From Prevotella sp. (GTDB lineage: Bacteria; Bacteroidota; Bacteroidia; Bacteroidales; Bacteroidaceae), in contig JAGAAJ010000117.1 in NCBI GenBank assembly GCA_017615355.1, positions 1-33,908 on the forward strand: a stretch of 33,908 bases of DNA. The letters are read 5' to 3'. Of this stretch, positions 9,055 to 29,897 are shown one piece after another. Each line of letters opens with the position of its first letter. Within the stretch, counting starts at the first letter, position 1. Both the position numbers and the translations under genes were made by a program. The notes below the pieces were generated by a model. That model did not search any database and was not told the origin of the DNA. It worked only from the letters and a program-made list of their open reading frames with translations.

Positions 9055-9176
9055 ATGTCCTGACGCTTCCTGTTTTTGCTCAAAAATGTAAAGAAATCGG
9101 AAAGGACTGTAAGGGGTGAAAAGGGGGTGTTGACGAATTCCTCCGACACGCTTCGAAAAAATGCATTTTATATGAG

Positions 9177-9204
9177 AAGAGGTCTTTATTGGCCTCTTTT
9201 TTGT
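9177..9204 (+). terminator. Terminator after GH28
   Basis: AAGAGGTC (9177-9184) pairs with GGCCTCTT (9191-9198), with one T-G pair and a 6-nt loop, followed by a T-run. The rest of the 287-bp GH28-secDF gap holds a G-rich stretch (about 9100-9130) of no clear function and the secDF promoter. Confidence 0.75.
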
Positions 9205-9263
9205 CTTCAAAAGGCCCTGAAACGTGGAGAAAGCTTAAAAAAATGATGAAAAAAGGCCGAAAA

Positions 9264-9295
9264 TTTTTCTCTGTGTAAAAAAATCACTATATTTG
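9264..9295 (+). promoter_or_regulatory. Probable promoter of secDF
   Basis: TATATTTG at 9288-9295 matches the -7 element. A T-run at 9264-9267 (TTTT, three of four matches to TTTG) sits 20 bp upstream. The leader to the secDF ATG is about 46 nt and AT-rich. Confidence 0.65.
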
Positions 9296-9341
9296 CAGGT
9301 CAAATTGCGCATATATAGCAACAAATATTATAAAAATCAAA

Positions 9342-12300: not shown

Positions 12301-12413
12301 TGGGTGTCATCTTCGGCACACTGTCGTCTATCTTCATCGCTGCACCTACTGCTTACCTCATCCTGAACCGTAAGAGTAACAAGCAGCAGAAGAAAGAAGA
12401 GGCTGCAAAGTAA
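9342..12413 (+). CDS. secDF: Fused protein translocase subunit SecD/SecF
   Basis: 1023 residues, the usual fused form in Bacteroidetes. SecDF uses the proton gradient to help pull secreted proteins across the inner membrane after SecYEG. An N-terminal membrane helix (about 7-27) is followed by the SecD signature LGLDLKGGLNAILEV, a large periplasmic region with an Ala/Asp-rich loop (about 260-310), and the SecD membrane block (about 500-660) containing TLGTAVDANVLIYERIKEE. The SecF half begins near residue 687, with RSIDFTGGRNFVVVLE, and ends with its own membrane block containing TVIGYSINDKVVVFDRIREN. The last residues are Lys-rich. It is flanked by its own promoter and a strong terminator, so it is an independent housekeeping unit sitting between two pectin-related genes. 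Confidence 0.98.
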   Translation: MQNKGIVKFIAVALVLVCCFYLSFSFVTSHYENKIEQMRAEQGDAAASRYQDSLEITKVWLWSWNLKECREMEMGLGLDLKGGLNAILEVSVPDIIDMLAASHNQDSDYRKVFEATSKQVQEKGEGDFVDIFCDMWESQYPNRKLREIFATSQLRDKVTSQSENKEVRQVLHDEVTSAIDNAENVVRNRIDKFGVVQPNIQRLEGQSRIMVELPGVKDESRYLKMLASSANLEFWETYSAAEVTGYIQQMMTEYAAMMEHGVQAETTDTANVAVADSLSQADADSTNVAAAANNADASDLTARLGGQQQTSGGYQLPRIGFAQGNALVAHVYKTDTAAINDIIKSDMGQRIQRENNFKLLWSAKAEPDLTEVQTGEVFGLYAIKVTDPMGRPALEGNVIVSAKDEFDQLGKPVVTMQMDSKGTAEWARLTRENINKSIAIVLDNEVYSAPNVNSEIDGGNSQISGHFTIEETKDLANTLNSGKMPAPMRILSHQMVGPSLGAKSIQQGIISFIVAFILLMCVMVLLYNFIPGMLANMALLLNLFFTLGILASFQAALTMPGIAGIVLTLGTAVDANVLIYERIKEEMRKGLHIREAVNAGYSNAFSAIFDSNLTSLITGVILYIFGTGPIRGFATTLIIGICISFFTAVFMTRLIYDRQMRKDKWQNLTFNTPFSKNLMQNTKFNIMGQFKKSYAIWAIAAVLFCVSFGVRGLSRSIDFTGGRNFVVVLEKDVPVEDVRKVLEGAFINTTGSNEGKQANTSVISLEGKSTVRISTNWNYEDNSPVIDEQAKDILYEKLKGAGLITKATADQFKAPAANGVEKDSEIGRIESDMKVGPSIAKTITRAAFISVLLALIAIFLYILLRFRNVAFSVGSIVALFFDALIVIGFFSVLWGWVPMSLEVDQTFIGAILTVIGYSINDKVVVFDRIRENLGLYPKHDKKQLFNDSINQTLARTINTSVTTLIVLLTIFVLGGDSIRPFSFAMILGVIFGTLSSIFIAAPTAYLILNRKSNKQQKKEEAAK

Positions 12414-12450
12414 GGACGCTTCACGCAGTCAACTGCAACCTTAGAAAAGC

Positions 12451-12490
12451 AAGCCCCGGCCGCGCGCCAACTACGCGGGTCGGGGCTTTT
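12451..12490 (+). terminator. Strong terminator after secDF
   Basis: AAGCCCCGGCC (12451-12461) pairs with GGTCGGGGCTT (12478-12488), with one G-T pair, followed by T residues. It ends 15 bp before the CE8 start, so the CE8 gene has almost no leader of its own. Read-through or a promoter inside the hairpin region would be needed to express it. Confidence 0.85.
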
Positions 12491-12504
12491 CTATCATCCA
12501 TTCT

Positions 12505-13569
12505 ATGAGAAAACTACTATCTACTGTCCTGCTCTGTTGTTTGCTGGCCGTTCCCGTTTCCTTGAGCGCCCGCAAGCGATATATCATGGTCAAGCCAGGC
12601 GATGCGCAGAGCCTTTTGGAGGCCATCAGCAAGTCGAGCGTGATGAATGCCGATTCGATGTCGGAGCGGCTCTTCATCCTCATACCCGACGGCTTCTACG
12701 ACCTCGGCGAGACGGTGCTCACAACCATCTGGGGACATAATGTGGCATTGATAGGACAGAGCATGGAGGGCACCATCATCCGCAACTGCCCGCCCGTGGA
12801 GAAAGAGGGCATTGGCACAACGGCGGTGTTTCTCAATCGCGGCGTCAACACCTATGTGCAGGACCTGACTCTGCGGAACGACCTCGACTACTATCACTCC
12901 GGAGCTGCCGGCCGCGCCGTCTGCTGGCAGGATAAGGGCAACCGCGTCGTCTTCAAGCGCGTACGCATGTTGTCCTATCAGGACACCTATTACAGCCACA
13001 GCGAGGAGTGCCAGCATTATTTCGAGGACTCCGAGATACACGGCACCGTCGACTTCATCTGCGGCGCAGGCGATGTGTACTTCAACCGTTGCCTCATTGT
13101 CACTGAGAAACGTGAGGCCAACGGGCATGGCCGCAATGTCATCGTGGCCCCTCGCACATCGACCACCAACTGGGGCTATGTCTTCCGCGACTGTACCATC
13201 CGCAACGACGTCTCCACCTTCCACTATGCCCGCGGATGGCACACCCATCCCCGTTGCACATGGATCAACACCATTCTGGAGTCGCCCGAGAAGCTCGAGC
13301 CCGAGCGCTTCGACCCGCAGAGTATCCGCTCCGAGGAGTGTGAGTTTGGCGAATACGGCACCGTTGACCTGCAGGGACACGCCCTCACCCCTGACTCGAA
13401 TGTCATCACCCTTCATGGCAAGGAGGGCATTCGCACCGTGCAGACAACCCTCTCGGCCGATTCTGCCGCCCGCTTCACCCTGCGCAACGTCTTCCCCGAC
13501 TGGCAGCCCGATCAGGTGGTACGCCGCCTGGAGAAACAGAGCCTCCGCCTGGCTCGCAAGCACTTCTGA
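12505..13569 (+). CDS. Pectinesterase-like carbohydrate esterase, family 8
   Basis: 354 residues with a Sec signal peptide (about 1-22). CE8 enzymes remove methyl esters from homogalacturonan, preparing it for GH28 or lyase attack. Family signatures are visible: LSYQDTYYSH (D160, general acid position), GTVDFICGAGDVYFNRC (D183, nucleophile position) and ARGWHTHPRCTWINT (R243, W245), which stands where classical enzymes have LGRPW. The protein is a beta-helix and diverged from plant and Erwinia forms, so pectin as substrate is likely but not proven. It starts 15 bp after the secDF terminator, and I see no clear -7 element before it. It is followed by two hairpins. Confidence 0.88.
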   Translation: MRKLLSTVLLCCLLAVPVSLSARKRYIMVKPGDAQSLLEAISKSSVMNADSMSERLFILIPDGFYDLGETVLTTIWGHNVALIGQSMEGTIIRNCPPVEKEGIGTTAVFLNRGVNTYVQDLTLRNDLDYYHSGAAGRAVCWQDKGNRVVFKRVRMLSYQDTYYSHSEECQHYFEDSEIHGTVDFICGAGDVYFNRCLIVTEKREANGHGRNVIVAPRTSTTNWGYVFRDCTIRNDVSTFHYARGWHTHPRCTWINTILESPEKLEPERFDPQSIRSEECEFGEYGTVDLQGHALTPDSNVITLHGKEGIRTVQTTLSADSAARFTLRNVFPDWQPDQVVRRLEKQSLRLARKHF

Positions 13570-13614
13570 TTGAGCAAGGCTGCGAAGTAACAACATTTCG
13601 TTTCCCTCATACAG

Positions 13615-13646
13615 CGCTGGTTTTCATCCGAAAGCCAGCGTTTTTT
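13615..13646 (+). terminator. Terminator after CE8 gene
   Basis: CGCTGG plus TTTT (13615-13624) pairs with AAAG plus CCAGCG (13631-13640), followed by six T residues. It terminates plus-strand transcription from the CE8 gene. Confidence 0.85.
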
Positions 13647-13660
13647 CTTCGTGTCATCAA

Positions 13661-13687
13661 AAAAGCCCCCTTTTTGAGGGGGCTTTT
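13661..13687. terminator. Bidirectional terminator between CE8 and murF
   Basis: AAAAGCCCCC (13661-13670) pairs perfectly with GGGGGCTTTT (13678-13687) around a 7-nt loop. A/T runs on both sides let it work in both directions. It lies 8 bp from the murF stop and so ends the minus-strand operon. Confidence 0.85.
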
Positions 13688-13694
13688 CGTATGA

Positions 13695-15110
13695 TCAGAG
13701 GAACTCGGGCAGCTGGTAGAGCTTGTTGCCGTTGGAACCCTTGATGAGGATGAGCTTGCCTGTGGGACGATGGGCCTGCAGATGGGCTTTTACATCTTCC
13801 ACGTCGTGGAAGTGATGAGTGGTGAGAGGGGAGGTGTGAGGCGTGAGACCGCTGAACTCTTCTCCCACGAGCCATACTTCCTCGATGCCGCTATCGGCCA
13901 GGAGGTCGAGGATGTGCTGGTGCTCCTCGCGGCTGACGTCGCCCAGCTCGCGCATCTCGCCGAGGATGGCCATCTTGGCCTCGCCCTCAAGGGTGGGCAT
14001 GAGGCGGAAATTGTCGATGGCGGCGGCCATGCTGGAGGGGTTGGCGTTGTAGGCATCGACGATGAGGCGGTTGTGCTCTGTCTGCACCAGCTGCGAGCGG
14101 CTGTTGGTGGGCACGTAGTTTTCCAAAGCATGACAGATGGCCTTGCGGTCGACGCCGAAGTTGATGCCCACGGCGATGGCGGCCAGGAGGTTGTCGATGT
14201 TGTAGGCGCCGATGAGGTGGGTGCGCACCTTGTGCCATTTCTGCGAGGCTCCTGTCTCTTCGAGTTCCATGAGGGGCTTGCGCCAGCGGAAGGTGAGCTC
14301 CGGGTCGCAGCTCACCACCTCGCCCGAGATGCACATGTACTGCTTCTCAGGGTCGGTGCTGTAGGGGGTGAGGAAGATATCGTCGTCGTCGCCGATGAGG
14401 TCGAGGAGGATGTCGTTGTCGGCATTGATGAAGATGGGGCCCTGGGTGTTGGCCTTCAGATAGTCGTAGAGCTCGCCCTTGGTCTTGATGACGCCCTCGA
14501 AGGAGCCGAAGCCCTGCAGGTGGGCACGGCCTACGTTGGTGATGAGTCCGCAGGTGGGCTCGGCCGTCTCCACGAGTGTCTTGATGTCGCCCGGATGGCT
14601 GGCACCCATCTCGATGATGGCTATCTCATGCTCTTTGTTGAGTCGCAGCAGGGTCTTGGGCACACCCACGTCATTGTTGAAGTTGCCCTCGGTGGCCAGC
14701 ACGTTGTATTTCTCTGAGAGCACGGCCTTGATGAGCTCCTTCGTGGTGGTCTTGCCGTTGGTGCCCGTGATAGCGATGACGGGGATATCGAACTGGCGGC
14801 GATGCTCGCGAGCGATGTCCTTGAGGGCCTGAAGGCAGGAGTCGACAACGATAAACCCCCTCTCACTCCCCCCGGAGGGGGGAAGATTGTCAAGGGTGTA
14901 AACGGGGTATTGTTTTCCCCCTTCGGGGGAATTAAGGGGGGGCTCATCCACGATGGCGTAGGCGCAACCTTTTTCAAGGGCCTGGAGGGCGAAGCGGTTG
15001 CCGTTGAAGTTGTCACCCTTCAGGGCGATGAAGATGCTGCCTTCGGGGCAGTCGCGGCTGTCGGTGGTGATGCAGGGATGCTGTTGGTAGAGGTCGTAGA
15101 GGTTATTCAT
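13695..15110 (-). CDS. murF: UDP-N-acetylmuramoyl-tripeptide--D-alanyl-D-alanine ligase
   Basis: 471 residues. Adds D-Ala-D-Ala to the UDP-MurNAc tripeptide, the last cytoplasmic step of peptidoglycan precursor synthesis, using ATP. The N-terminal domain shows TTDSRDCPEGSIFIALKG (UDP binding), the P-loop is GTNGKTTT (about 116-123), followed by EMGASHPGDI and NVGRAHLQGFGS, and DAYNANPSSM lies in the C-terminal domain. Two oddities stand out. Residues about 58-86 are a low-complexity insertion encoded by a double hairpin element between VDEP and VVDSCLQ. Near the C-terminus, LTPHTSPLTTHHF is encoded by degenerate heptamers. Both keep the frame open. One base separates the start from the lptD stop, so the two genes are coupled. 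Confidence 0.96.
   Translation of the reverse strand: MNNLYDLYQQHPCITTDSRDCPEGSIFIALKGDNFNGNRFALQALEKGCAYAIVDEPPLNSPEGGKQYPVYTLDNLPPSGGSERGFIVVDSCLQALKDIAREHRRQFDIPVIAITGTNGKTTTKELIKAVLSEKYNVLATEGNFNNDVGVPKTLLRLNKEHEIAIIEMGASHPGDIKTLVETAEPTCGLITNVGRAHLQGFGSFEGVIKTKGELYDYLKANTQGPIFINADNDILLDLIGDDDDIFLTPYSTDPEKQYMCISGEVVSCDPELTFRWRKPLMELEETGASQKWHKVRTHLIGAYNIDNLLAAIAVGINFGVDRKAICHALENYVPTNSRSQLVQTEHNRLIVDAYNANPSSMAAAIDNFRLMPTLEGEAKMAILGEMRELGDVSREEHQHILDLLADSGIEEVWLVGEEFSGLTPHTSPLTTHHFHDVEDVKAHLQAHRPTGKLILIKGSNGNKLYQLPEFL
13811..13845. repeat. Degenerate heptamer tract inside murF
   Basis: Five units in exact 7-bp phase: AGTGATG, AGTGGTG, AGAGGGG, AGGTGTG and AGGCGTG. Read on the coding strand these are CACNNCT-type units, the same family as the tract at 4816. 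They encode a linker near the MurF C-terminus. Confidence 0.65.
14855..14946. repeat. Compound C/G-rich palindromic element inside murF
   Basis: It contains two hairpins: TCCCCCC/GGGGGGA (14867-14873 with 14877-14883, loop GGA) and TTCCCCC/GGGGGAA (14915-14921 with 14925-14931, loop TTC). C-runs lie at the left edge (14856-14860) and G-runs at the right edge (14936-14942). The element is read through in frame by murF. Confidence 0.75.
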
Positions 15111-15111
15111 A

Positions 15112-18100
15112 TTAATACCATTGTACGGAGTTGGAGTAGCTGGAGCGCTTGTCGTATTTCAGGGCGTCGGTCAGGGTGGAGGCGTTGCATCGGAAGCTGA
15201 AGTTATAGCTGGTGTAGGGTGCCAGCACGACTGAGCACGACATGTTGAAGCAATGCAGGTCGCGGCTGAGCGAGGCGGTGGTCATCGAGATTTTCTTGTA
15301 GTCGAAATCGTAGCCCGACGAGAAGCTGATGTTCCAGCCGTCGCTGATGCGAATGTTGCCGCTGATGTTGAGGTTTTGCGTGAACTTGTAGGGATAGCGC
15401 ATCGTGTTGTAGTTGAAGCGCTTCACATTATTATCCTCGCGCATACTGATGCCGTAGCCGAAGCTGAGGCTCCAGGGCAGCGAGAAGGCCATGTATCCGT
15501 CCTCGTCGGTCTCGGCCTTGCCTGCTTTCTCGCGCTTGGCTCCATGCTTGCCTTTCTCCAGGTCGCGGTCGACGTTGGTCTCCACCTCGTTGTCGTCCTC
15601 GTCGTAATCATCGTCATCGTCGTCATTGCGTCGGCGGTCTTTCTTCTTGTCCTTGTCGTCGCGCTCGCCCTTCAGCCAGCGGATGAGCTTTGCTATCTTG
15701 TCGTCGCTGATGGTATAGCTGAGGTTCTGCGACATACCCTGGAAACGTCCTATCTTGCCCATTCCCCAGTAGGTCTGCGTCTCGCTCAACCGAGGCGTGG
15801 CCCCTACGGAGTCGGCTTCGTAGACATAGCTGGCGAAGACGGCGTTGAGATTGAAGGTGTAGCTCTTCGTCAGCTTCAGGCGGATGCGTGTGTTGAGGTC
15901 GCTCCAGGGACGTGTCTTTGCCGCCATGTTGTAGGACATCGAGGCACCCAGCTCGTCGATGATGCTCACCTTCTTGAAACCTGAGATGGTGTCCTCGTCG
16001 CTCTTGATGCGCATCTCGATATTGTTCGACATGTCGAAGGAGATGCTGCCCGTCTTGCCCTTGCCCGGTACGCCGTAGAGGGAGCCTGAGTAGGGCGAGT
16101 ATTCCACCAGCGTGACGTTGCCCTCGGCATCGGTCTTCTGGTAGGTCTCGTAGTAGCCGTAGCGCTTGGCGCTGAAGTCGGGCGAATAGCTGAAGCTGAG
16201 CGAGGGCGTGAAGACGTGGCGGATGCGGTCGATCTTGTCGCCGAAGAGCTTGCGCGAGGGGATGTAGGAGCCGTAGAGCTTGGTGCTGGCCGACACGGAC
16301 ATGCTCCAGTTATAGACGTTGTAGAAGCCGTAGACGGTATCGTTCACCTCCTTGCTGGCCACGTCGTCCCACGACTTCATGATCTTGTTGGTGTAGGTGC
16401 GGTCGGTGAAGTTGATCGACGGGTTGATGTTGATGTAGTTGAGGAGGGAGAAGTTGCCGCTGATGGGGATGCTGTGCTGCATGCCGTTGCGCCAGTCCTT
16501 GATGATGTTGGAGTGCATCAGCTTGTCCTCCTTCGTAGAGATGGAGTTGGAGAAATGGCCGGTGTAGCTCATCGAGATCTTCTCATACCAGCGCTCCTTG
16601 CCTGCCATCTTCTTGCGCTTGAAGGGGTAGAATCGTGAGATGCTGATGTTCAGGTCGGGCATCGTCATCGCGATGGTGGAGTCCTTCATGTTCTGGTTGA
16701 GGTTCATCGTCGTGCTCAGCGACATGCCGATGCTCGAGAAGTTCGTGCTGTAGCTGACGGAAGAGGTACGCGTCGACTGCGTCATCGTCTGCGGGTTGTA
16801 CATCGACGTGAGGTTGTTCTTCTCATAGCTGCTGGTGGCGAAGTTCACCGATGCGGAGAGGTTGCTGAAGGGGTTGGCCTTCGGGTCCTGACGGTGGCTC
16901 CATTGTATCTTGAAGCTCGTGGTCTTGGCATAGTCGGGCATGTTCTTCTCGCCTGTCACCGAGTTCTGGTAGCTGGCAAAGACCGAGCCGCTGTAGCGGT
17001 AGCGCTTGCGGTAGTTGCTGGCGGTGCTGATGCCCCACGAGCCTTTGGTGTAGATCTCGCCGATGAGCTTCAGGTCCATCTTGTCGCTGATGGCGAAATA
17101 GTAGCCGCCGTCGCGCAAGTAGAAGCCGCGTGACGTCTCGTCGCCGTAGGTGGGCATAATGAAGCCCGAGGAATAGGTCTTGGTGAAGGGGAAGAAACCG
17201 TAGGGAATGGCCAGCGGGATGGGCACGTCGCATACCACGAGGTAGGATGGGCCGAAGACCACATCCTTGCCGGGACGCACCTTTGCACGGCTCATGGCGA
17301 TGTAGAAGTCGGGATGCGGGTCGTCGCAGGTGGTGTATTTGCCGTGACCCAGGAAGAGCTCGCCGTTGGCCCCGCGCTTGGCCACCTCAGCCGTCAGATA
17401 GCCGTCCTCCTGCTGGGTGTAGACCTGCTGGATAAGGCCCTTCTTCGTCTTGAAGTTGAAGGCCATCGTGTCGTTCTCGTAGGTGTCGCTGCCCATCTTG
17501 AAGACGGGAGTGCCGTACTTCTCGCCGATTGAGTCGACGGAGCCGGTGGCATGCACCAGCGACGAGTCGAGCACCATGTATATCTTGTCGCTCTGCAGGT
17601 CCATGTTGATGTACTCGACATGCGACGAGCCGTATAGCTGGGCCGTGCCTGTGGAGGCTTCGTAGATGATGGAGTCGTTGGCCGAGAACTTCACAGGGGC
17701 GTCGATGCCGTTCTTCTTCTGCTTGTTCAGCGAGTCGAGACGCAGCGAGTCGTCAATCACCTTGTTGTATTTGTAGATGGCTAGCTCCAGCGAGTCCATC
17801 AGGGTGGTGTCACGTTTCAGGGCAGCATGGGCAGGACGCGAAGGGTCAACTGGCAGGCTGTCGGGAAGGACGGGCTCGGCCTTTTCTTCCTTTTCCGAAG
17901 GGGCTTGAATCGAATCGGCTTTGAGGGAGTCGACGGGAGCGATGATGGAGTCGGCCTTCTCCTTGATGGCTTCCAAAGGAGCCTCTAATGAATCAGCTAA
18001 GGCCGCGATGGTATCGGCAAGGGCTTCTTCTATGGCCTTTATGGGAACTTCCGGCGTCGTGCTGTCAGAGGGCAGGACGATGGCGGTTTGCTTGGTCGAG

Positions 18101-21439: not shown

Positions 21440-21973
21440 GTGAGAATCATCACAGGCAAATACAAGGGAAGGCATTTTGATATTCCCCGAACCTTCAAGG
21501 CAAGGCCCACGACCGACTTTGCCAAGGAGAATATCTTCAATGTGCTGATGGGCTATATCGACTTCGACGGCACTCGCGCTCTCGATCTCTTCGCTGGTAC
21601 CGGCAGCATCACCCTCGAACTGCTCTCACGCGGATGCAGTCAGGTGGTGAGCGTCGAGCTTGACCGCGACCATCACCGTTTCATCCAGCAATGCATCGCC
21701 AAGTTGCAGGGAGAAAATAATGTGCAATGTCTTCGAGGCGACGTCTTCCGCTTCATTAAGGGTTGCCACCAACAGTTTGACTTTATCTTCGCAGACCCGC
21801 CCTACGCCTTGAAGGAGTTGCCGCAGATTCCCGACCTAATTTTTGAGCACAATCTCCTTGCTCCCGATGGTGTTTTCGTCTTCGAGCACGGCAAGGATAA
21901 TGACTTTTCGCAGCACCCCCGCTTTGTGGAGCACCGCAGCTATGGCAGCGTGAACTTCTCTTTGTTCCGCTAA
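21440..21973 (+). CDS. rsmD: 16S rRNA (guanine966-N2)-methyltransferase
   Basis: 177 residues. Methylates G966 of 16S rRNA with S-adenosylmethionine. The start is GTG, giving MRIITGKYKGRHFDIP, the usual RsmD N-terminus (RIIxGxxxGR). LDLFAGTGSITLELLSRG is the SAM-binding motif I, VVSVELDRD is motif II, and FIFADPPYALKEL is the catalytic (D/N)PPY motif. The length is normal. It follows DUF3822 in one unit. Its stop codon overlaps that of the convergent PAP2 gene by 4 bp, leaving no space for a terminator between the two transcription units. Confidence 0.95.
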   Translation: MRIITGKYKGRHFDIPRTFKARPTTDFAKENIFNVLMGYIDFDGTRALDLFAGTGSITLELLSRGCSQVVSVELDRDHHRFIQQCIAKLQGENNVQCLRGDVFRFIKGCHQQFDFIFADPPYALKELPQIPDLIFEHNLLAPDGVFVFEHGKDNDFSQHPRFVEHRSYGSVNFSLFR

Positions 21974-22965
21974 CTTCTTTCCTTACAGCAAAAACGGTTG
22001 AAGAACCAGCGTAGGAGGAAATACATCGTCACGCCTGCAAAGAATCCAGCAATGGCATCAATGGCATAGTGCGCCTGGATGTAGAACGTGCCAAAGAACA
22101 GCAGAACAGCAAAGGGCAGGAAGGCATAGAATAGCCAGCGGTTGCGACTCTCCCATGCCAGGAACATCACTACCACCGTGACACTCACATGACTGCTGGG
22201 GAAGGCGGCCGTGGGCCTCTCGCCGGCATTGTGGGTAAACTCCAGGATGTGGTAGAAGAATCCGTCAGTATCTCCAGGCAAGGGCAGCGAGAATTGCGGG
22301 TCGAGCACGTCAAACTCCAACTGACCGAAATAGTTCTGCAGGTCGGGGTAGATGCCGGCTGAGATGTTTTCCAGGCCGACAGCCTTGAAATAAAACTGAG
22401 GACCGGCTACAGGCAAGACGACAAAGATGACATAGGAGAGGAAGAAGGAGGCCAGAATGATGAAGGTGGTGCGCTCAAAATGCTCGTATCTCCAGAAGAA
22501 GTAGAACAGCGAGACGCCCACAAACAGGGGATAGTAGCTCACATAGCCCATCGTCAGCAGCTCACTCACGATTGGCAGGTTGTACACTTGGCTGAATACC
22601 AATGCTGGCTGGCAGCCGAAGAGGCTTTCTTCCCATCCGGCAAAGATGTGGTCAAGATTGAGGAATACGCGGTTCAGCTCGTAGGTATCTGGATACCAAA
22701 GCCCAAGTAGCGACATCTGGCCTGCGATGCGCAGCATAGTGGTCAGGCGGCAGGGCTTCAGGCGATACAATCCCCAAAGCGCAAACGTCACAATAAGAGC
22801 TTGGGCGCGTGTCCAAGCCATCAGACCGATGGTGGTGCGACTGCTGGAGGTCAACAGGATAAACAGCGAGGTAGCCAGCAGATAGGTCATCATCACCCAT
22901 TCCACAGGCATCAGTCCACGACGGGGATGCTCCTCGACTGCAATCAGTTGCCTAAAGAACTTCAT
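21970..22965 (-). CDS. PAP2-superfamily membrane enzyme, AUR1/inositol-phosphotransferase-like
   Basis: 331 residues with about seven hydrophobic segments. The PAP2 core is ERPTAAFPSSHVS (H259), then, after one helix, QAHYAIDAIAG (H299, D303), the pattern of the PAP2_3/AUR1-like branch rather than classical PSGH phosphatases. In this branch the enzymes can hydrolyse a lipid phosphate or move a phospho-head group from a glycerolipid to another lipid such as ceramide. It is the last gene of the phosphonate operon and overlaps the preceding gene by 14 bp. From this context I infer that it handles the AEP-containing lipid, as phosphatase or head-group transferase. A simple undecaprenyl-phosphate phosphatase role is an alternative. 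Confidence 0.85.
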   Translation of the reverse strand: MKFFRQLIAVEEHPRRGLMPVEWVMMTYLLATSLFILLTSSSRTTIGLMAWTRAQALIVTFALWGLYRLKPCRLTTMLRIAGQMSLLGLWYPDTYELNRVFLNLDHIFAGWEESLFGCQPALVFSQVYNLPIVSELLTMGYVSYYPLFVGVSLFYFFWRYEHFERTTFIILASFFLSYVIFVVLPVAGPQFYFKAVGLENISAGIYPDLQNYFGQLEFDVLDPQFSLPLPGDTDGFFYHILEFTHNAGERPTAAFPSSHVSVTVVVMFLAWESRNRWLFYAFLPFAVLLFFGTFYIQAHYAIDAIAGFFAGVTMYFLLRWFFNRFCCKERS

Positions 22966-24034
22966 CCTTTTGCTGCTTCAGATATTCTTTGGGTTCGGTG
23001 CCGCCAATCTTCATCAGTATCAGGCCGATGACAATCCAGATGATTTCACGAACGCGGCAGATGATACTCTCGAAGATGCCCACCGCCGGCTTCAGACCCA
23101 GGGCAGCGGTGGAAATGACGATGCCGCCTTCCTGTACACCGAGTTGCATGGGCAGGAATCCGATGATGTTGGCCAGGAAGCTGGTGAATGCCAGGATAAG
23201 GATGGAGTGGAGATAGGTAAGTGCCAATCCCGACCATCCGCCGCCGCAGTCGATGCCGAAAAGCAGCAGCATGAAGAAGAACTCTGCACTCTGCACCACA
23301 CGGGAAAAATACTCGAGTATCAGCGCTGAGTAGAATGACCGTTTGTTCTGCTTGTGCAGGTTGGCTATCTGTCGGTCAATCTTGTGCAGGGTTCCTGAGT
23401 GACGTTCGAGGAAACGGTGGCTCCAGCCTTTCAGGCCGGGTATCTTTCCTGCCAGGCGAATGCCCTTGACTGCCAATCCGTGCTTATAGCCCTTGGCGAA
23501 GAGATAGAATGCCAGGAGAAACAGCACGAAGATGAGGGAAAGGATGACACCCACCATCGTGGTCATGGGCAGGTCGCCTACAGCTACCAACGCCAAATAG
23601 ATGAAGATGGAGATAAACCAGAACCAGAAGTGGGCAAAGATGTGCATCATGGCATAGAGGATGACCGACGATGCCGCATGATCCTGGCTGATGTTTTTCG
23701 AGAGCTCGATGATACGATAGGGCTCACCGCCAAGACCGCCAACGGGTGTGGAGTAGTTGAGCGCATAGCCGGTGATGGTCAGACGATAGATACGCCAGTT
23801 GCTGACGTGCTCGTCGGGACTTTTCACACCGTCGATGACACATTTCCACGACCAGGCATTGATGGCATAGATGATGATCCAGACACCCACGATGGGGATG
23901 AGCCAGTAGCCTGCATGACATAGATGCTCCCACAATTCGGCGAAGCTGACGTCGAAGGTAAAGAGCATGACCACTACGGTCACTACACCGAGGAGGAAGA
24001 AGAGATTGTTGATTCTTTGCTTAGTCCACTTCAT
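22952..24034 (-). CDS. LPG-synthase-TM/UPF0104 family membrane protein
   Basis: 360 residues, with about eight transmembrane helices and no soluble catalytic domain. Family motifs are PVGGLGGEPYR (about residue 95-105) and GFLPMQLGVQEGG (about 290-300). This family is the membrane part of lysylphosphatidylglycerol synthases (MprF), where it flips lipid; stand-alone members are linked to lipid transport or glycolipid metabolism. In the operon it lies 21 bp after the CDP-alcohol phosphatidyltransferase and overlaps the PAP2 gene by 14 bp. I infer that it moves the phosphonolipid product or an intermediate across the inner membrane. No substrate can be read from the sequence. Confidence 0.88.
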   Translation of the reverse strand: MKWTKQRINNLFFLLGVVTVVVMLFTFDVSFAELWEHLCHAGYWLIPIVGVWIIIYAINAWSWKCVIDGVKSPDEHVSNWRIYRLTITGYALNYSTPVGGLGGEPYRIIELSKNISQDHAASSVILYAMMHIFAHFWFWFISIFIYLALVAVGDLPMTTMVGVILSLIFVLFLLAFYLFAKGYKHGLAVKGIRLAGKIPGLKGWSHRFLERHSGTLHKIDRQIANLHKQNKRSFYSALILEYFSRVVQSAEFFFMLLLFGIDCGGGWSGLALTYLHSILILAFTSFLANIIGFLPMQLGVQEGGIVISTAALGLKPAVGIFESIICRVREIIWIVIGLILMKIGGTEPKEYLKQQKDEVL

Positions 24035-24055
24035 GCTGAGGAGTTGAGTAGATTA

Positions 24056-25039
24056 CTATTCAATGCTGTCGGCCATCTTCTTGCAGAAAGCCTCGTGGCG
24101 GCGAATGGTGTAGCGCATGATGAGCGTCACGATGATGATTTCAAAGAGGAATGTAGCCACAGGAATGTCGAGCAGACAGAACAGCAACAGATAGGATGTG
24201 CGGAAATTGAACACAAGCATGAACACATAGTTCAGCGTCGGCTTGGAATAGCGGCAGAACTCTTGGCGGACTGACTCTGGGAAGTTGGCCGTGTCGCCAT
24301 ATTTCTCACGCAGACGGGCCATAAGACGCTGGAACTGTGGTGTGACACGCTCCTGCTGGTAGGTGTAGTCAACATAAGACCGCTGGATGAGACGCTGCCA
24401 GAAATGACCTTTGGTCGGAATCTGGTCTAATAGCTCCTGCTGGCGTTTCACGTTGTCGAGCTCGCTGCCCTTCTCGCCTTTCAGGAAGAAGAGATGAGCC
24501 TGAATGTAATAGTCGGCAATACGTTGCTGAGGAGCGATACCAGCCAGGCCGGAGGTAATGGCCAGGATGAAGACGACGATGGTGGCGATGGTCACGGTGG
24601 TGGCTGTATCGCTGAGCCCAAGGAGGTTGAACTCGATGTCGTGGTGAACGTAAAAGCGATACGTCAGGGCGATGTAGATAGGACCATACCAAGCATAGCC
24701 TGCAAGTCCGTCAAGGATTCGGCCCAAGGCACTCTTCTTATTGGTCATGCGTGCCAATTGTCCGTCGGTATTGTCGAGGATATCGGCTATGAAGAGCAGC
24801 AGGAAAGCCATCAGGTTGTAGAAGAGGCCCCACTTTCCCTCATAGTAGAAGCAACCATGTGCGAAGAAGAAAGCGCTGGCGGCTCCAATAATCATTGAGG
24901 CGATGGTGACCGTGTTGGGATGAATGCCCAACTTGGCAAAGAAGCATGCCCAATAGTAGGTAAACGGTCTTACAATATGATAATCAACCCAGTCTTCTGT
25001 ATCAGCCGACTTGAGGGTTGCATATGCTTTTTCGTTCAT
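24056..25039 (-). CDS. CDP-alcohol phosphatidyltransferase family protein with altered motif
   Basis: 327 residues. About six hydrophobic helices follow an N-terminal amphipathic stretch. CDP-alcohol phosphatidyltransferases move a phospho group from a CDP-linked donor to an alcohol acceptor. The signature D-x2-DG-x2-AR-x8-G-x3-D-x3-D is present as D89, D92-G93, A96-R97, G106 and D110, but the last Asp is G114 (LDGLAGY). The final Asp is the proposed catalytic base in studied members, so the chemistry may be altered. The first three Asp residues that bind metal are kept. Located between AEP transaminase and the UPF0104 gene, it is a good candidate for attaching AEP to a lipid from a CMP-activated form. 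The C-terminal third, with two late helices, is longer than in small family members. Confidence 0.87.
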   Translation of the reverse strand: MNEKAYATLKSADTEDWVDYHIVRPFTYYWACFFAKLGIHPNTVTIASMIIGAASAFFFAHGCFYYEGKWGLFYNLMAFLLLFIADILDNTDGQLARMTNKKSALGRILDGLAGYAWYGPIYIALTYRFYVHHDIEFNLLGLSDTATTVTIATIVVFILAITSGLAGIAPQQRIADYYIQAHLFFLKGEKGSELDNVKRQQELLDQIPTKGHFWQRLIQRSYVDYTYQQERVTPQFQRLMARLREKYGDTANFPESVRQEFCRYSKPTLNYVFMLVFNFRTSYLLLFCLLDIPVATFLFEIIIVTLIMRYTIRRHEAFCKKMADSIE

Positions 25040-25052
25040 TGTTTTACTGTTT

Positions 25053-25084
25053 CGTTATGACGTTATGACGAAATAACGTTTTGA
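25053..25084. repeat. CGTTATGA-type 8-bp tract between phosphonate genes
   Basis: CGTTATGA twice, then CGAAATAA and CGTTTTGA, in phase. It fills most of the 52-bp gap between the AEP transaminase and the CDP-alcohol phosphatidyltransferase. Confidence 0.6.
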
Positions 25085-25091
25085 TGCTTTA

Positions 25092-26213
25092 TTACTTCTT
25101 CAGCTTGATTTTATAGAAATCCAATGCCTCTGCCATCACCACGAAGAAATTGTCGATGTCCTTCACGTCGATGGTGCCCAGGGCACAGAGACGGAAGGTG
25201 TTGGTGGTGCTAATCTTACCGGGATAAATGGTGAAGCCGCGCTCATAGCAGTAGTCGTGCACCTTCTCGAAACTCCAATTGGGATCATCGGGATATTTAA
25301 CTGACACCACGAGGCCCGACTCAATCTTCGGATCAATGACAGTCTCGAAGCCGAGTTCTTTCACACCCTTGCGGATGGCCTCGTAGACACGGCGATGGCG
25401 TGCGAACTTTGCAGTCTCACCCACTTCGAAGTATTCCTTCAGGGCCTGAATGGTGGCGTAGATGGTCTGCACGGGAGGCGTGAAGTGCATCTCGCCGGTC
25501 TTCTCGAAGTATTCGTATTGCAAGTAAAGGTTGCAGTAGTAGGAGCGGGTGGGGTAGTTCTTCGATGCCTCGATGATGGCCTTGCGACCGATAATGAACG
25601 AGAGACCCGACATGGCCATCAGTCCCTTTTGTGCCGAGGCCATGCAGAAGTCGACGTTGTCTTTCACCACGTCGAGGGGAATCATACCTAGCGTCGAGGT
25701 GGTGTCGCTGATGAAGATGGCTCCATGCTGATGGGCAAGGGCACCAATCTCGCGGATGGGGTTCAGCACGCCGGTACCCGTCTCGTGATGGCAGCAGTAA
25801 ACCACAGCCACGTCGGGATTGTCCTTCAATGTCTGCTCCACAGCTTTCAGGTCGGGCTGCTCGTAGACGCTCGATTTGAGGTCGATGTGTGGGATATGAT
25901 ACATCTGGCACACCTCTACGGCACGCGAGTTATAGGCGCCGTTGTTCACTACGAGTATTTTCTTGCCTTCGGGCACAAGTGAGTTGATGCAAATATCGAT
26001 GTTGATGGTTCCCGAACCGCAGAAGAGCACCGAGGTGTATTCGTCCTCAGGAGCATGAACCACTTTCAGCAGGTCGCTGCGCAGTCCTTTCATTAATCCT
26101 GCAAACTCTTTCTCTCGCGGACAGATATCGGGAACGACCTGTGCCATCTTCACCGTGTCGGTTGTTGTGGCAGGGCCGGGGTTCAACAATACATTTCTTT
26201 TAATTGTTTCCAT
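25092..26213 (-). CDS. phnW: 2-aminoethylphosphonate--pyruvate transaminase
   Basis: 373 residues. Interconverts phosphonoacetaldehyde and 2-aminoethylphosphonate with an alanine/pyruvate pair, using PLP. The start METIKRNVLLNPGPATTTDTV is the standard beginning of the family; an in-frame ATG 21 bp upstream is less likely. Landmarks are LFCGSGT (cofactor phosphate), ISDTTSTLG (D170, pyridine nitrogen) and MASAQKGLMAMSGLSF (K196, Schiff base). In degradation clusters this enzyme comes with phosphonatase (phnX), which is absent. Here it follows PEP mutase and the decarboxylase, so it works in the biosynthetic direction to make AEP. It is fourth-from-last in the operon, 52 bp after the decarboxylase. 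Confidence 0.95.
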   Translation of the reverse strand: METIKRNVLLNPGPATTTDTVKMAQVVPDICPREKEFAGLMKGLRSDLLKVVHAPEDEYTSVLFCGSGTINIDICINSLVPEGKKILVVNNGAYNSRAVEVCQMYHIPHIDLKSSVYEQPDLKAVEQTLKDNPDVAVVYCCHHETGTGVLNPIREIGALAHQHGAIFISDTTSTLGMIPLDVVKDNVDFCMASAQKGLMAMSGLSFIIGRKAIIEASKNYPTRSYYCNLYLQYEYFEKTGEMHFTPPVQTIYATIQALKEYFEVGETAKFARHRRVYEAIRKGVKELGFETVIDPKIESGLVVSVKYPDDPNWSFEKVHDYCYERGFTIYPGKISTTNTFRLCALGTIDVKDIDNFFVVMAEALDFYKIKLKK

Positions 26214-26265
26214 GTCTAAAAATCTAAACGTCAAACTAAAAAACGCTACGTTCCAACATAGCCTG

Positions 26266-27393
26266 TTATTGCTTGAGGAAGTCCATCAGGGCTTCTTTAT
26301 TCTGAATCGGAGTGGTGGTGGGACGTCCCAGGTCTTTCCTGTTGCCTTTCTTTACGCGGACTTCGACGAGCGCGGGGCCATTGGCCATTTTGACCTTTGA
26401 CAGCGTCTCTTGCAGGGTCTCTTTCGTCTCAACGCTATAAATCTGTTTATAACCTACAGCCTTGGCGATGGCGGGCAGGTCGATTTGCAGTCCTACGGTA
26501 GGCTGACCTCCAACGGAGTCGTGGGCACCATTGTTGAAGACTACATGTACATAGTTGCTGGGCTGCATAGAGGCCGTGATGGCCATATTGCCCATGTGCA
26601 TGATGGCAGCGCCGTCGCCGTCGAAGCAATATACGGGACGGTTGGGCTGCTGCAGGGCGATGCCCAGCGCTATCTGGGAGGCGTGCCCCATAGAGCCTAC
26701 GGTAAGGAAGTCGTGGCCGTGACCCTGGCCTTTGCGCTCTCTTATCTCAAACAGCTCGCGTGAGATCATTCCTGTGGTCGACACCACGGCGGCAGTTGGG
26801 GGCAATGCCTCTACGACGGTCTCAATGGCTTCTTCGCGGGCAAGTGTCAGTCCGCTATCCACCTTATTCTTCAGCGTATAGGTATCGAAGGTGTCTTTCT
26901 CGATGACCAAGGCATAGCACTCGTTGGTCTTCAGCATGTATTCCACAGCCGTTTTTATCTGTTTTGCTGCAGCCTCCTCGTCTTTGCTCAGCACGGTGTA
27001 GTTGATGCCCATCGTATTGAGCAAGCCTGTCGTCACCTTACCCTGTTTGACGTGCTGTGGCTCGTCGTGCACACCTGGGCGTCCTCTCCAACCTATCAGC
27101 AGCAGTACAGGGATGTTGTACACCTCCTTGTCGGTCAGCGAGGCCAACGGGTTGATGATGTTTCCTTCGCCCGAGTTCTGCATATAGACGACGGGGATGC
27201 GCCCTGTAGCCAGGTGATAGCCTGCGGCAATACCCATAGCGCCACCCTCATTGGCAGCGATAATGTTCTGCTCTCGTGGCAGCGTGTCTGTGATGTAGGC
27301 ACAGATATTCTTCAACAACGAATCGGGCACACCGGCAAAGAAGTCGATGTTGCTCTCTTTCAGTTTCTCAATAAAAAAATCAGGTCTCAACAT
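26266..27393 (-). CDS. aepY: Phosphonopyruvate decarboxylase
   Basis: 375 residues. Decarboxylates phosphonopyruvate to phosphonoacetaldehyde with thiamine diphosphate and Mg2+, which makes the unfavourable PEP mutase step run forward. The ATG at 27393 (MLRPDFFIEKLKESNIDFFAGVPDSL) is chosen over a TTG two codons upstream. The TPP glutamate is in AANEGGAMGIAAGY (E49), and the TPP-binding motif is FDGDGAAIMHMGN ending in a conserved Asn (HVVFNNGAHDSVGGQPT). It is a single fused chain, as in Bacteroides, not split into two subunits. The gap to PEP mutase is 22 bp and holds the second copy of a 19-bp repeat. Confidence 0.96.
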   Translation of the reverse strand: MLRPDFFIEKLKESNIDFFAGVPDSLLKNICAYITDTLPREQNIIAANEGGAMGIAAGYHLATGRIPVVYMQNSGEGNIINPLASLTDKEVYNIPVLLLIGWRGRPGVHDEPQHVKQGKVTTGLLNTMGINYTVLSKDEEAAAKQIKTAVEYMLKTNECYALVIEKDTFDTYTLKNKVDSGLTLAREEAIETVVEALPPTAAVVSTTGMISRELFEIRERKGQGHGHDFLTVGSMGHASQIALGIALQQPNRPVYCFDGDGAAIMHMGNMAITASMQPSNYVHVVFNNGAHDSVGGQPTVGLQIDLPAIAKAVGYKQIYSVETKETLQETLSKVKMANGPALVEVRVKKGNRKDLGRPTTTPIQNKEALMDFLKQ

Positions 27394-27396
27394 AAC

Positions 27397-27415
27397 CAAT
27401 AACCGTTAACCAATA
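27397..27415. repeat. 19-bp intergenic repeat, copy 2
   Basis: The minus strand reads TATTGGTTAACGGTTATTG, one base different from the copy at 21415-21433. It fills the gap between the PEP mutase stop and the decarboxylase start. Confidence 0.75.
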
Positions 27416-28735
27416 TTATGCCTTTTTCGTTCCCGGAATCAGGTTCAGAATCTGTTTGATGGGCATACAGTAATCGTTGCTGGCCTCCAGGCTGCGGCTA
27501 TGTTCAAGGATGCTCTCGGCGCATTTCACCATAGCGGGATAGGCCGAGCGCAGCATGTGGTTGGCATAGATGACGATGTTGATGCCCCATGAAGCCAGCT
27601 CCTCTTCGGTAAACTGGTTGTAGGTGGTGGGCACGGCCACGATGGGCGTGTGGTTGTCCTTCTCGCGGAAGCGCAGGCAGAACTCCTTGATGTCTTCGCC
27701 GCTCTTGTCCTTCGAGTGAATCATGATGCCGTCGGCTCCTGCCTCCACATAGGCGTGACAACGCTCAAGGGCATCGTCGACCGACTTGCCGGCGATGAGG
27801 CTCTCGCAACGCGAGATCACCATGAAGTCGCGGGTGATCTGAGCATTCTTGCCTGCCTTGATCTTATTGCAGAAGCCCTCGATGGTGTCTTGCATCTGCA
27901 CAGCATCGGTGCCGAAGAGCGAGTTCTGCTTCAGTCCTACCTTGTCCTCGATGATGACGGCCGAGATACCCAGACGCTCCAATGTGCGAACGGTGAATAC
28001 GAAGTGCTCTACCTTGCCGCCCGTGTCGCCATCGTAGATGACTGGCTTGGTCGTCACCTCGAGCGTGTCGTTCAGGTCGTGCAGGCGGGTGGTGAGGTCG
28101 ACTGCCTCGATGTCGGGCTTGCCCTTCGACGTGGAGTCGGTAAGCGACGAGGCCCACATGCCGTCGAACTCGCGGTGCTGTCCGTTCACCTCTACCGATG
28201 TGTGCTCGGCAATGAGTCCCGTCAGACCGTTGTGTGACTCCAGGATGCGCACGATGGGCTTAGCTGATATCAGTCGGCGCAGCGAGGCCAGGCGAGCCTG
28301 CGGCGTGACGCCCAGCGAGTCAATTTCCTGCTTCAGTCCTGATGCCGAGATGCCTTTGGTGTAGGGAATCTCGATGACTTCGCCTCCCAGCGACTCCATC
28401 GTCTTGAACACTTCGTCGCGGATGTATTTGTCGGGACCGTATTGCCAGTCGTCGCCGTGAATGATGTAGTCGGGCTTGTATTTCAGGAGGTTGGGCACAT
28501 AGCTCCACTCTTCCTGCGGAACGATGGAATCCACGCCCTTGATGTTCTCGATGACATTCTTGCGCTGCTCATAGGTCAGATACGGCAGTCGCTTGTGGGT
28601 TGCTATGGCCTTGTCGGTATAGAGGCCAATCATCACTTTACCATACTTGGCACCCTCGTTAATGATGTTGATAAGTCCGGGGTGCATAATGTCGCCTATC
28701 ATTCCCAGATAGACAGTTTTCGATGTGTCTTTCAT
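27416..28735 (-). CDS. aepX: Phosphoenolpyruvate mutase fused to N-terminal nucleotidyltransferase-like domain
   Basis: 439 residues. PEP mutase converts PEP to phosphonopyruvate, forming the C-P bond. Residues about 5-140 are a cytidylyltransferase-like domain (TagD type) with GDDW (94-97), TYEQRKNVIE and GISASGLK (128-135). The usual HxGH nucleotide motif reads HPGL (H18, L21), so one catalytic His is replaced. Residues about 155-439 are the PEP mutase: DGMWASS, YDGDTGG and the mutase signature EDKVGLKQNS (E263-K265, N271-S272), all intact. In related fusions the nucleotidyltransferase makes a CMP-activated phosphonate. It is the first gene of the operon, with a -7 element about 44 bp upstream. 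Confidence 0.96.
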   Translation of the reverse strand: MKDTSKTVYLGMIGDIMHPGLINIINEGAKYGKVMIGLYTDKAIATHKRLPYLTYEQRKNVIENIKGVDSIVPQEEWSYVPNLLKYKPDYIIHGDDWQYGPDKYIRDEVFKTMESLGGEVIEIPYTKGISASGLKQEIDSLGVTPQARLASLRRLISAKPIVRILESHNGLTGLIAEHTSVEVNGQHREFDGMWASSLTDSTSKGKPDIEAVDLTTRLHDLNDTLEVTTKPVIYDGDTGGKVEHFVFTVRTLERLGISAVIIEDKVGLKQNSLFGTDAVQMQDTIEGFCNKIKAGKNAQITRDFMVISRCESLIAGKSVDDALERCHAYVEAGADGIMIHSKDKSGEDIKEFCLRFREKDNHTPIVAVPTTYNQFTEEELASWGINIVIYANHMLRSAYPAMVKCAESILEHSRSLEASNDYCMPIKQILNLIPGTKKA

Positions 28736-28829: not shown

Positions 28830-29840
28830 CTACAACCACCCATTCTCTTTATACCATTGAATGGTCAGATGGGTGCCTTCCTTCAGTTGATAATGAGGCT
28901 CATAGCCCAGCTCTTTGCGTGCCGGCTCGATATCACAACGCCAGTTGCGCTGCTTCAGGATGTGATACTTGTCGTTGTTCAGGGCCGAGATCTTACCTGT
29001 GATGTGTCCCCATTTGTCACCCAGCCACGTGATGACACGCAGTACCCAGATGGGTGCCTTGATACGAATCCACCAGGGATGGCCCAGCTCCTCGCGGATG
29101 AGGTCGCTGAACGTCGTCGACTGATAGACCTCGCCGTCTGAGAGGAAGTATTTGCGGCCTGTCTGACCTTTTTCGCAGGCAAGGAAGACGGCCTGCACCA
29201 CGTCCTGCACATAGACGAAGGTGATGTCCTGACGCTTGTAGCCCACGGCGAAATCGCTGTGCTGCTTGATGCTCTTTGCCATCAGGAAATAGTCGCGTTC
29301 GCGCGGGCCATAGACGCCGGTCGGACGCAGAATGACGTAAGGGAAAACCCCTCCTCCCGAGGGGGCTTCTAATGCGTCTAACCATTGCTCAGCCTCTAAC
29401 TTACTGCGTCCGTAGTTGGTGTTGGGCTGTGGCGTATCGTCTTCACGGATCTCCGTGTAGGGCTGTTGCTCATGGATGGCTCCGAAGACACTAAGCGAGC
29501 TGAGATAGACAAAACGCTTCAGCGGCATCTTCAGGGCCAGAAGGGCCCGCACAAGGTTCTTCGTGCCCTCGGTATTGATGCGGAAGAAATCCTCCTTGTT
29601 CAGACATTTCGTCACGCCTGCGGCATGTACCACATAGTCGAAGTCCTGTCCCTTCAATTGGCGCTCCAAGTCCTCCTGACTGGAGAGGTTCAGCTCGATG
29701 AAGTGGATGCGCTCATCGGTGAGAAACTGTTTCGAGCTGCTCTTGCGCATAGCCGCCCATGTCTCAAAGCCTTGGCGCAGGGCTTCCTCGACAATAAATG
29801 AGCCGATAAATCCGCTGGCGCCGGTCACTAATATTTTCAT
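28830..29840 (-). CDS. Extended SDR, NAD-dependent epimerase/dehydratase family
   Basis: 336 residues. The start is MKILVTGASGFIGSFIVEEAL, the NAD(P)-binding GxxGxxG motif; the frame extends 45 bp upstream without such features. The catalytic pattern is YLSSLSVFG followed by NYGRSKLEAEQW (Tyr and Lys of YxxxK). The C-terminal half contains RPTGVYGPRERDYFLM, typical of 3-beta-HSD-like and nucleoside-diphosphate-sugar epimerases. A short low-complexity insert (EAPSGGGVFPYV) sits between the YxxxK helix and the RPTGVYGP strand and is encoded by a C/G-rich hairpin. The gene is 94 bp upstream of the phosphonate operon in the same direction. Lipid or sugar substrate is not readable. A role in sphingolipid base or ceramide reduction is conceivable but unsupported. 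Confidence 0.85.
   Translation of the reverse strand: MKILVTGASGFIGSFIVEEALRQGFETWAAMRKSSSKQFLTDERIHFIELNLSSQEDLERQLKGQDFDYVVHAAGVTKCLNKEDFFRINTEGTKNLVRALLALKMPLKRFVYLSSLSVFGAIHEQQPYTEIREDDTPQPNTNYGRSKLEAEQWLDALEAPSGGGVFPYVILRPTGVYGPRERDYFLMAKSIKQHSDFAVGYKRQDITFVYVQDVVQAVFLACEKGQTGRKYFLSDGEVYQSTTFSDLIREELGHPWWIRIKAPIWVLRVITWLGDKWGHITGKISALNNDKYHILKQRNWRCDIEPARKELGYEPHYQLKEGTHLTIQWYKENGWL
29348..29364. repeat. Short C/G-rich palindrome inside SDR gene
   Basis: CCCCTC (29348-29353) pairs with GAGGGG (29359-29364) around a 5-nt loop. It encodes APSGGG and resembles the hairpin elements in murF and GH2 in composition, but it is shorter. Confidence 0.5.
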
Positions 29841-29858
29841 ATTTCCTGAATTTGTGTG

Positions 29859-29866
29859 CAAAATTA
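29859..29866 (-). promoter_or_regulatory. Putative -7 element of the SDR gene
   Basis: The minus strand reads TAATTTTG (followed by C), 18 bp before the ATG. No convincing -33 TTTG at the right distance. Confidence 0.5.
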
Positions 29867-29897
29867 CTACTTTTTCTTCAATCAACGTGCTAAAAAC

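Follow-up and report, generated by a model that had tools for sequence, protein, structure and literature searches.

Gene organization of the locus

The 33,908-nucleotide stretch of Prevotella sp. DNA analysed here (the window) forms contig C55 of a 90% complete genome of 3.2 Mb in 147 contigs, and carries six open reading frames, all on the minus strand from 28735 to 21970, in which genes for the synthesis of 2-aminoethylphosphonate (AEP) adjoin genes for membrane-lipid enzymes. The run opens with aepX (27416..28735), a phosphoenolpyruvate (PEP) mutase with an N-terminal cytidylyltransferase-like domain (PF01467), recognized by TIGR02320 (407 bits) and by its EDKxxxxxNS motif. It is followed by the phosphonopyruvate decarboxylase gene aepY, or ppd (26266..27399; TIGR03297, 520 bits), and the 2-aminoethylphosphonate aminotransferase gene phnW, or aepZ (25092..26234; TIGR03301, 473 bits); all three exceed the curated cut-offs of these models. 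The fourth gene (24056..25039) encodes a CDP-alcohol phosphotransferase (CAPT; PF01066, 37.3 bits against a gathering score of 22) of a clade marked by Asn90, with profile matches to AF2299, CPT1 and CEPT1, and is proposed here to be a CMP-AEP:lipid transferase. The fifth (22952..24034) encodes an LPG_synthase_TM (UPF0104/HpnL-like) membrane protein and putative lipid translocator, matching PF03706 above its cut-off (81 bits) and TIGR03476 HpnL under its cut-off (65 bits against 196). The last (21970..22965) encodes a PAP2_3 membrane phosphatase/phosphotransferase (PF14378), present genus-wide and of uncertain role in the pathway. The genes are separated by 16, 31, 52 and 21 bp and by one 14-bp overlap; the 16-bp gap presumes a TTG start for aepY and becomes 22 bp when counted from its first ATG. 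The open reading frames and family matches thus confirm the common direction and the families named in the original prediction, whose list omitted a gene 94 bp upstream of the run, also on the minus strand (28830..29885), for an extended short-chain dehydrogenase/reductase (SDR) of 351 aa from the NAD-dependent epimerase family (PF01370).

Two further loci retain this layout. L214 has the same six genes in the same order with the same flanks, and L218 keeps gene order and flanks with a PntC gene added between aepY and phnW; because both keep order and flanks, the arrangement exceeds chance. The six-gene unit as such was rejected, since PAP2 is found genus-wide and is usually paired with the SDR. 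It occurs in 282 of the 299 genomes of the genus, and the SDR gene is its immediate upstream neighbour in 25 of the 29 loci that scored best among these 282 genomes, the window not counted; of the four without it, two start at the end of a contig and one is the cassette of G128. PAP2 and CAPT lie on different contigs in G237, G314 and G322. The claim that AEP synthesis is coupled to lipid enzymes consequently stands for a specific CAPT clade and a putative translocator, and falls for PAP2 as a dedicated part. We describe aepX, aepY, phnW, CAPT and the translocator gene as a five-gene AEP-lipid cassette. In the window, L214 and L218 this cassette is flanked by SDR and PAP2, and in G129 it precedes the SDR-PAP2 pair. 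PAP2 closes the run in the window, L214, L218 and L230. The joining of the cassette at two SDR-PAP2 junctions may reflect either function or a favoured site. PDB sequence and profile searches with PAP2 returned PgpB-type phosphatase only, and weakly, and so lend no support to the AUR1-like label given to it earlier; its structure model has a pLDDT (predicted local distance difference test) of 88.6. An assignment of the SDR as a ketosphinganine reductase of the BT_0972 type is disfavoured, as BT_0972 is described as a short-chain family protein of ~31 kDa (PMC9278070) and the SDR is of the extended, epimerase type; a role for the SDR as ceramide reductase (CerR) is possible.

An asparagine-type CAPT clade

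Relatives of the CAPT were found in 249 of the 299 genomes (E 1e-40 or better). A census was made of the neighbourhoods of all matches with at least 50% identity together with eleven named records, giving 123 loci with the window excluded. Six loci below 50% identity stand outside the 123, and L215, L217, L219, L220, L228 and L230 were left out as copies (of L085, L086, L126, L087, L094 and L125); none of the eleven other named records has a CAPT identical to any in the genome set. In 113 of the 123 loci an LPG_synthase_TM gene shares the strand of CAPT and lies no more than 6.5 kb away, and CAPT with its LPG_synthase_TM/HpnL-like neighbour is a core that recurs in the genus.

The residue following the first catalytic Asp divides the 123 loci into a large Cys type (111), an Asn type (10), to which the window belongs, and a Ser type (2). 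At nine of the ten Asn-type loci AEP genes lie no further than 6.5 kb from CAPT on its own strand, and at none of the 111 Cys-type loci do they lie on either strand. The latter instead carry, in 93 cases, a PF00155 pyridoxal phosphate (PLP) enzyme within 6.5 kb on either strand, which resembles HisC and CobD although both models score below cut-off; 70 of these 93 also have a PF12804 nucleotidyltransferase, and 18 of the 111 have neither. No PLP enzyme that would serve another head group was found at the Asn-type loci. The original prediction had named as a point against itself a rule that the lipid genes occur apart from the AEP genes; such a rule holds for the families as wholes and not for the Asn-type clade.

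The Asn-type CAPTs form one clade, with a support of 99 in a quick tree (43 census loci and the window) and of 95/99 in a careful tree built without the long-branch L048 and without ten discriminating columns (42 loci and the window). All ten Asn-type sequences compared, that of L223 among them, have N90, Y118, Y271 and F273, and nine have V272, with Ile in the tenth; of 29 Cys-type sequences, 26 to 29 have C, F, W, N and G at positions 90, 118, 271, 272 and 273. No second CAPT of at least 50% identity was found in the seven Asn-type genomes (that of the window, G128, G129, G166, G237, G314 and G322). The aepX partners of the Asn-type CAPTs are scattered in a quick tree of 42 relatives and the window (fragments L123 and L124 left out), where well-supported branches force 3 changes between lipid-linked and LicD-linked genes. 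As the CAPTs are one clade and the aepX genes are scattered, the AEP genes would have joined the clade on several occasions or have been exchanged. The association of CAPT with AEP thus appears to have held while the supplier genes were swapped or joined repeatedly.

An independent origin of the Asn-type CAPT in L223 was considered and is unsupported, since this sequence still groups with the other Asn-type CAPTs once the discriminating columns are taken out. Its branch is nonetheless long, and a clade of the remaining ten rows alone is not rejected by the approximately unbiased (AU) test (p 0.335). The L223 locus (9001-15377) contains CAPT, translocator, PntC, aepX, aepY and phnW in a differing order, its CAPT being 61% identical and retaining most Asn-type residues. 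The ten named records of the Asn type are all metagenome bins, nine titled Prevotella or Prevotellaceae and L223 uncultured Bacteroidetes. Two titles mention roe deer rumen or reticulum, and three carry RUG names, which we take to denote rumen genomes.

Active site and substrates of the CAPT

The catalytic stretch of the window CAPT (24710..24775, minus strand), identified from alignments, reads D89-N90-x-D92-G-x-x-A-R...G-x3-D110. Compared with the family signature D1xxD2GxxARx8GxxxD3xxxD4, D1 to D3 and the G, A, R and G positions are present and D4 is replaced by Gly114. D89, D92, G93, A96, R97, G106 and D110 are invariant in 62 CAPT sequences, and the protein is best regarded, from these alignments, as a divergent offshoot of the CDP-alcohol phosphotransferase family. 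Profile searches ranked users of CDP-head groups (AF2299, CPT1, CEPT1, IPCT-DIPPS) above the CDP-diacylglycerol users PgsA and PssA. A Foldseek search with the structure model (pLDDT 91.7) placed AF2299 and phosphatidylinositol-phosphate (PIP) synthases on top (probability 1.00, best E 0.0075, template modelling score 0.3-0.4), which confirms the family of the modelled protein and not its donor. By its likeness to CPT1 and CEPT1, diacylglycerol is the most likely acceptor. Ceramide is a possible one, because the same genome holds a serine-palmitoyltransferase-like gene that has the PACA motif, as taken from the description in mBio 2024, and scores below the TIGR01825 cut-off.

Activation of AEP

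The domain fused to aepX resembles the cytidylyltransferase of Fom1 and had been linked to CMP activation of phosphonates. However, the HxGH motif of the PF01467 phosphonate cytidylyltransferases of the Fom1 type is replaced in the window by HPGL (residues 18-21; 28673..28684, minus strand), aligned with HPGH in Fom1 (5x3d) and with its relatives, so that the second His is lost. The motif was readable in 43 fusions of the genus, the window included. The last His is kept in 11 of them; ten of these occur with an iron alcohol dehydrogenase, and neither PhnW nor a separate PntC accompanies any. In L118 to L122, which are five of these 11, the N-terminus bears a further nucleotidyltransferase stretch. 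The remaining 32 have HPGL or HPGY, 26 together with PhnW and six with neither PhnW nor PntC. A separate PntC is present in 24 of the 26 PhnW-type loci, the two without it being the window and L214. The fusion as the CMP-AEP enzyme is disfavoured on these grounds. It was also observed that the second His of HxGH is lost in 26/26 PhnW loci and kept in 10/10 loci with iron alcohol dehydrogenase.

A PntC gene is encoded elsewhere in the genome of the window, at C100:16371-17090. It is 75% identical to the PntC of L085, which has its best match (156 bits) in 6pd1/6pd2, the PntC of T. denticola (Treponema) whose crystal structure with CMP-AEP is described by Rice 2019. Behind the C100 gene lie two LicD genes and a kinase-like gene, the latter recognized by eye after a PF06293 protein of L098, and the C100 PntC is 89-91% identical to the PntC of the LicD-type AEP loci L101, L102, L104 and L105. 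With the second His gone from the aepX-fused domain, the sequences suggest that CMP-AEP probably comes from the PntC on C100. Since this gene adjoins LicD genes, a glycan use of AEP is also possible in the same genome, and a single CMP-AEP pool probably feeds both the CAPT and LicD. The order PntC-LicD-LicD-kinase-like at C100:13895-17090 (L322) resembles that of the LicD-type locus L101 without the AEP synthesis genes.

AEP genes in the genus and the order

A match to aepX was found in 39 of the 299 genomes, including that of the window, and lies beside CAPT in five of them (the window genome, G129, G166, G237 and G322). LicD (PF04991) was found near the AEP genes at 25 of 36 loci without CAPT and at none of nine with CAPT (Fisher p 1.9e-4, a value overstated since the genomes are related); five of the eleven loci lacking both LicD and CAPT have less than 3 kb of contig downstream. 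No LicD was found at the AEP locus of the window in the stretch reaching 5 kb upstream and 11.5 kb downstream, and in G129, which has the cassette, none was found in the genome (82% complete). Of 392 further genomes drawn from the order, a few of them belonging to this genus, an aepX match was found in 18 and spans the fused domain in 17. The lipid branch would thus be a minority offshoot of a mostly glycan-directed AEP pathway. No CDP-alcohol transferase was found at the aepX plasmid regions of Burkholderia stagnalis, Rhizobium rhizogenes and Segatella copri DSM 18205, for which the gene table is incomplete.

Proposed pathway and alternatives

Taken together, the gene content points to a branch of AEP metabolism that ends in a lipid, with a predicted phosphonolipid as product, and we regard this as the best and a likely reading of the cassette. 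In such a pathway AepX would convert PEP to phosphonopyruvate, AepY would convert this to phosphonoacetaldehyde and PhnW would yield AEP. AEP and CTP would then give CMP-AEP, most likely through the C100 PntC, and the CAPT would transfer AEP from CMP-AEP to the free hydroxyl of a lipid, most likely diacylglycerol, acting as the phosphonate counterpart of a CDP-ethanolamine phosphotransferase. The HpnL/LPG_synthase_TM protein would move the AEP-lipid across the inner membrane. As the CMP-AEP pool is probably shared with the LicD transferases, AEP may reach both lipid and glycan.

Several observations weigh against this interpretation. The operon of the window holds no clearly intact cytidylyltransferase, and its genome has four LicD genes, two of them beside PntC. 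The donor choice of the CAPT is not settled by likeness: the best NCBIfam models are archaetidylinositol- and phosphatidylinositol-phosphate synthases, all far under cut-off, and Foldseek places PIP synthases that use CDP-diacylglycerol above CPT1 and CEPT1, no match lying under E 0.001. The fourth signature Asp is missing in all 65 aligned CAPT sequences, window included. The one Asn-type locus free of AEP genes, L126, is from G314, a 98% complete genome that has the Asn-type CAPT and the translocator and in which PEP mutase was not found. The scatter of aepX comes from a quick tree only. Beyond the genus, three of the 18 genomes with aepX have a CAPT, which is never near aepX (on another contig in two, ~95 kb away in G533). 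As to L126, loss of PEP mutase, an assembly gap or another donor would each account for its state.

More tentatively, the genus could possess a modular head-group platform of the Kennedy type, in which CAPT and translocator form the core, residues 90 and 271-273 set the donor, and a swap of supplier genes would swap the head group, here giving phosphonolipids. The code would pair N/YVF with AEP genes, and C/WNG with a HisC/CobD-like PLP enzyme, often accompanied by an NTP (nucleoside triphosphate) transferase; inositol-type genes would mostly go with S/YTN. The Cys-type cluster is then a probable, unnamed CDP-head-group lipid pathway, perhaps with ethanolamine- or serinol-phosphate as head group. 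At L043:4651-8519, CAPT and LPG_synthase_TM occur with a HisC/CobD-like PLP enzyme, itself well conserved, and with a PF12804 nucleotidyltransferase; 93 of the 111 Cys-type loci share the PLP enzyme, and 70 of these the nucleotidyltransferase.

The lipid-branch reading has a sub-case, close to the original prediction, in which AEP-diacylglycerol is flipped outward and PAP2 moves AEP to ceramide, giving ceramide-AEP. The position of PAP2 at the end of four cassettes and the serine-palmitoyltransferase-like gene fit this scheme, as do the dihydroceramide-phosphoethanolamine described for P. copri DSM 18205 (mBio 2024) and the periplasmic location given for the Caulobacter ceramide reductase (JBC 2024). 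PAP2 is nevertheless a genus-wide gene, usually paired with the SDR, and its PDB sequence matches are confined to a phosphatase, so that we consider the sub-case rather unlikely.

It is likewise unlikely that AEP goes to glycan through PntC and LicD elsewhere, with the CAPT and the membrane protein handling another head group as in their Cys-type relatives. The PntC-LicD-LicD genes on C100, the identity of this PntC to copies at LicD-type loci, and the fact that AEP genes of the genus usually have LicD beside them all speak for such a route. The C100 genes also remove an argument that had been made against glycan use, namely that no capsule genes lie near the operon. Against it stand the partition of AEP genes between Asn-type loci (nine of ten, and the window) and Cys-type loci (none of 111), the lack at the former of a PLP enzyme for a different head group, and the cassette of G129 in a genome where LicD was not found.

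Phosphatidylethanolamine is the donor for EptA-type enzymes, and it is conceivable, though quite improbable, that AEP-diacylglycerol is merely a donor for periplasmic decoration of lipid A or glycan. The translocator-like protein following CAPT would suit that role, and an AEP capsule is known in Bacteroides fragilis, as described by Rice 2019; however, no EptA-type transferase was found among the nine scanned proteins of the window, the rest of the genome not having been searched for one. Finally, a CAPT with a degenerate active site and no head-group transfer, suggested by the missing fourth Asp, is very hard to reconcile with the seven invariant positions and with retention next to the partner gene in 113 of 123 loci.

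Relation to known systems

The closest parallel in gene content is provided by clusters from lichen Nostoc, with Burkholderia for comparison, in which pepM, ppd, AEP aminotransferase, NTP transferase, CDP-alcohol phosphatidyltransferase and hpnL are described together and interpreted as phosphonolipid synthesis, the Nostoc lipid itself being proposed there from the genes (PMC5987646). The window likewise unites pepM, ppd, the AEP aminotransferase, a CDP-alcohol transferase and an HpnL-like protein, the last below cut-off. Unlike the clusters as described, neither the window nor the L214 cluster includes the NTP transferase, the window genome having its copy on C100, and the fused domain of aepX lacks HxGH. 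As far as the description goes, the Nostoc clusters add an Fe(II) oxidase and other genes, and they are likened to the window by gene content, not sequence. The figure of the Nostoc and Burkholderia clusters is reportedly adapted from Yu 2013 PNAS. Because the NTP transferase is not in the operon, we do not file the window as a full phosphonolipid-cluster member; by analogy, its operon may work like these clusters, as the Nostoc phosphonolipid idea in Bacteroidota with a genus-specific CAPT.

The likeness to CEPT1 and CPT1 of the eukaryotic Kennedy pathway consists of the profile matches and of the proposed CMP-AEP as phosphonate analogue of CDP-ethanolamine. The similarity is, however, local (~90 residues), the CAPT has no fourth Asp, and Foldseek ranks both enzymes below the PIP synthases. 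An alternate inositol-lipid cluster of Prevotella and Bacteroides is described as having an NTP transferase, a CDP-alcohol transferase and a HAD gene (Heaver 2022). This content recurs near seven of ten CAPT loci below 50% identity (L035-L054), but with another head group and mostly S90 rather than N90, and the equation with the published type rests on gene content in that description. The inositol-lipid cluster BT_1522-1526 of B. thetaiotaomicron shares a CDP-alcohol transferase and a PAP2-type gene with the window; BT_1523 is described with a CDP-diacylglycerol donor, and no MIPS, PgpA-like or PIP phosphatase gene of the kind described for that cluster was found among the nine scanned window proteins. 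The LicD-type AEP glycan loci (Pnt pathway), as outlined by Rice 2019, share aepX, aepY, PntC and phnW, with LicD replaced here by CAPT and LPG_synthase_TM.

No report of a cluster of AEP genes with a CDP-alcohol transferase in Bacteroidota was found among the best matches in the open-access literature, subscription papers lying outside that search. Three features seem to be new, and no paper on them was among those matches: the residue-coded CAPT clade, its swap relative to an unnamed but widespread head-group cluster, and the splitting of the activation step. Phosphonolipid clusters are said to be often predicted, the way in which surface phosphonates are made being described as almost unknown (Rice 2019). 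A phosphonate head group is stated to resist regular phospholipases (PMC5987646), which could aid survival among rumen predators. AEP has also been used as a marker of rumen protozoa, a use described as questioned since bacteria and feed contain AEP (PMC4659874); if the proposal is correct, the cassette would be a bacterial route to and source of AEP in the rumen, in Prevotella of rumen and like habitats. A compact testable set is offered by a single enzyme clade, its residue code, and the Cys-type and Ser-type enzymes of the genus as matched controls; the Cys-type cluster also suggests another, uncharacterised pathway for a lipid head group.

Other neighbours of CAPT

In another family, the locus L053:5359-10215 comprises CAPT, LPG_synthase_TM, a separate PF01467-like cytidylyltransferase, an SDR and two acyltransferase-like genes (the last three recognized by eye), and is perhaps a further head-group variant. 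Close to CAPT and on its strand, 15 of 60 mapped loci (L041-L043, L045, L048-L051, L054, L133, L144, L148, L155, L162 and L164) encode a DUF5686/CarbopepD_reg_2 protein of ~850 residues, a possible outer-membrane partner of CAPT-made lipids.

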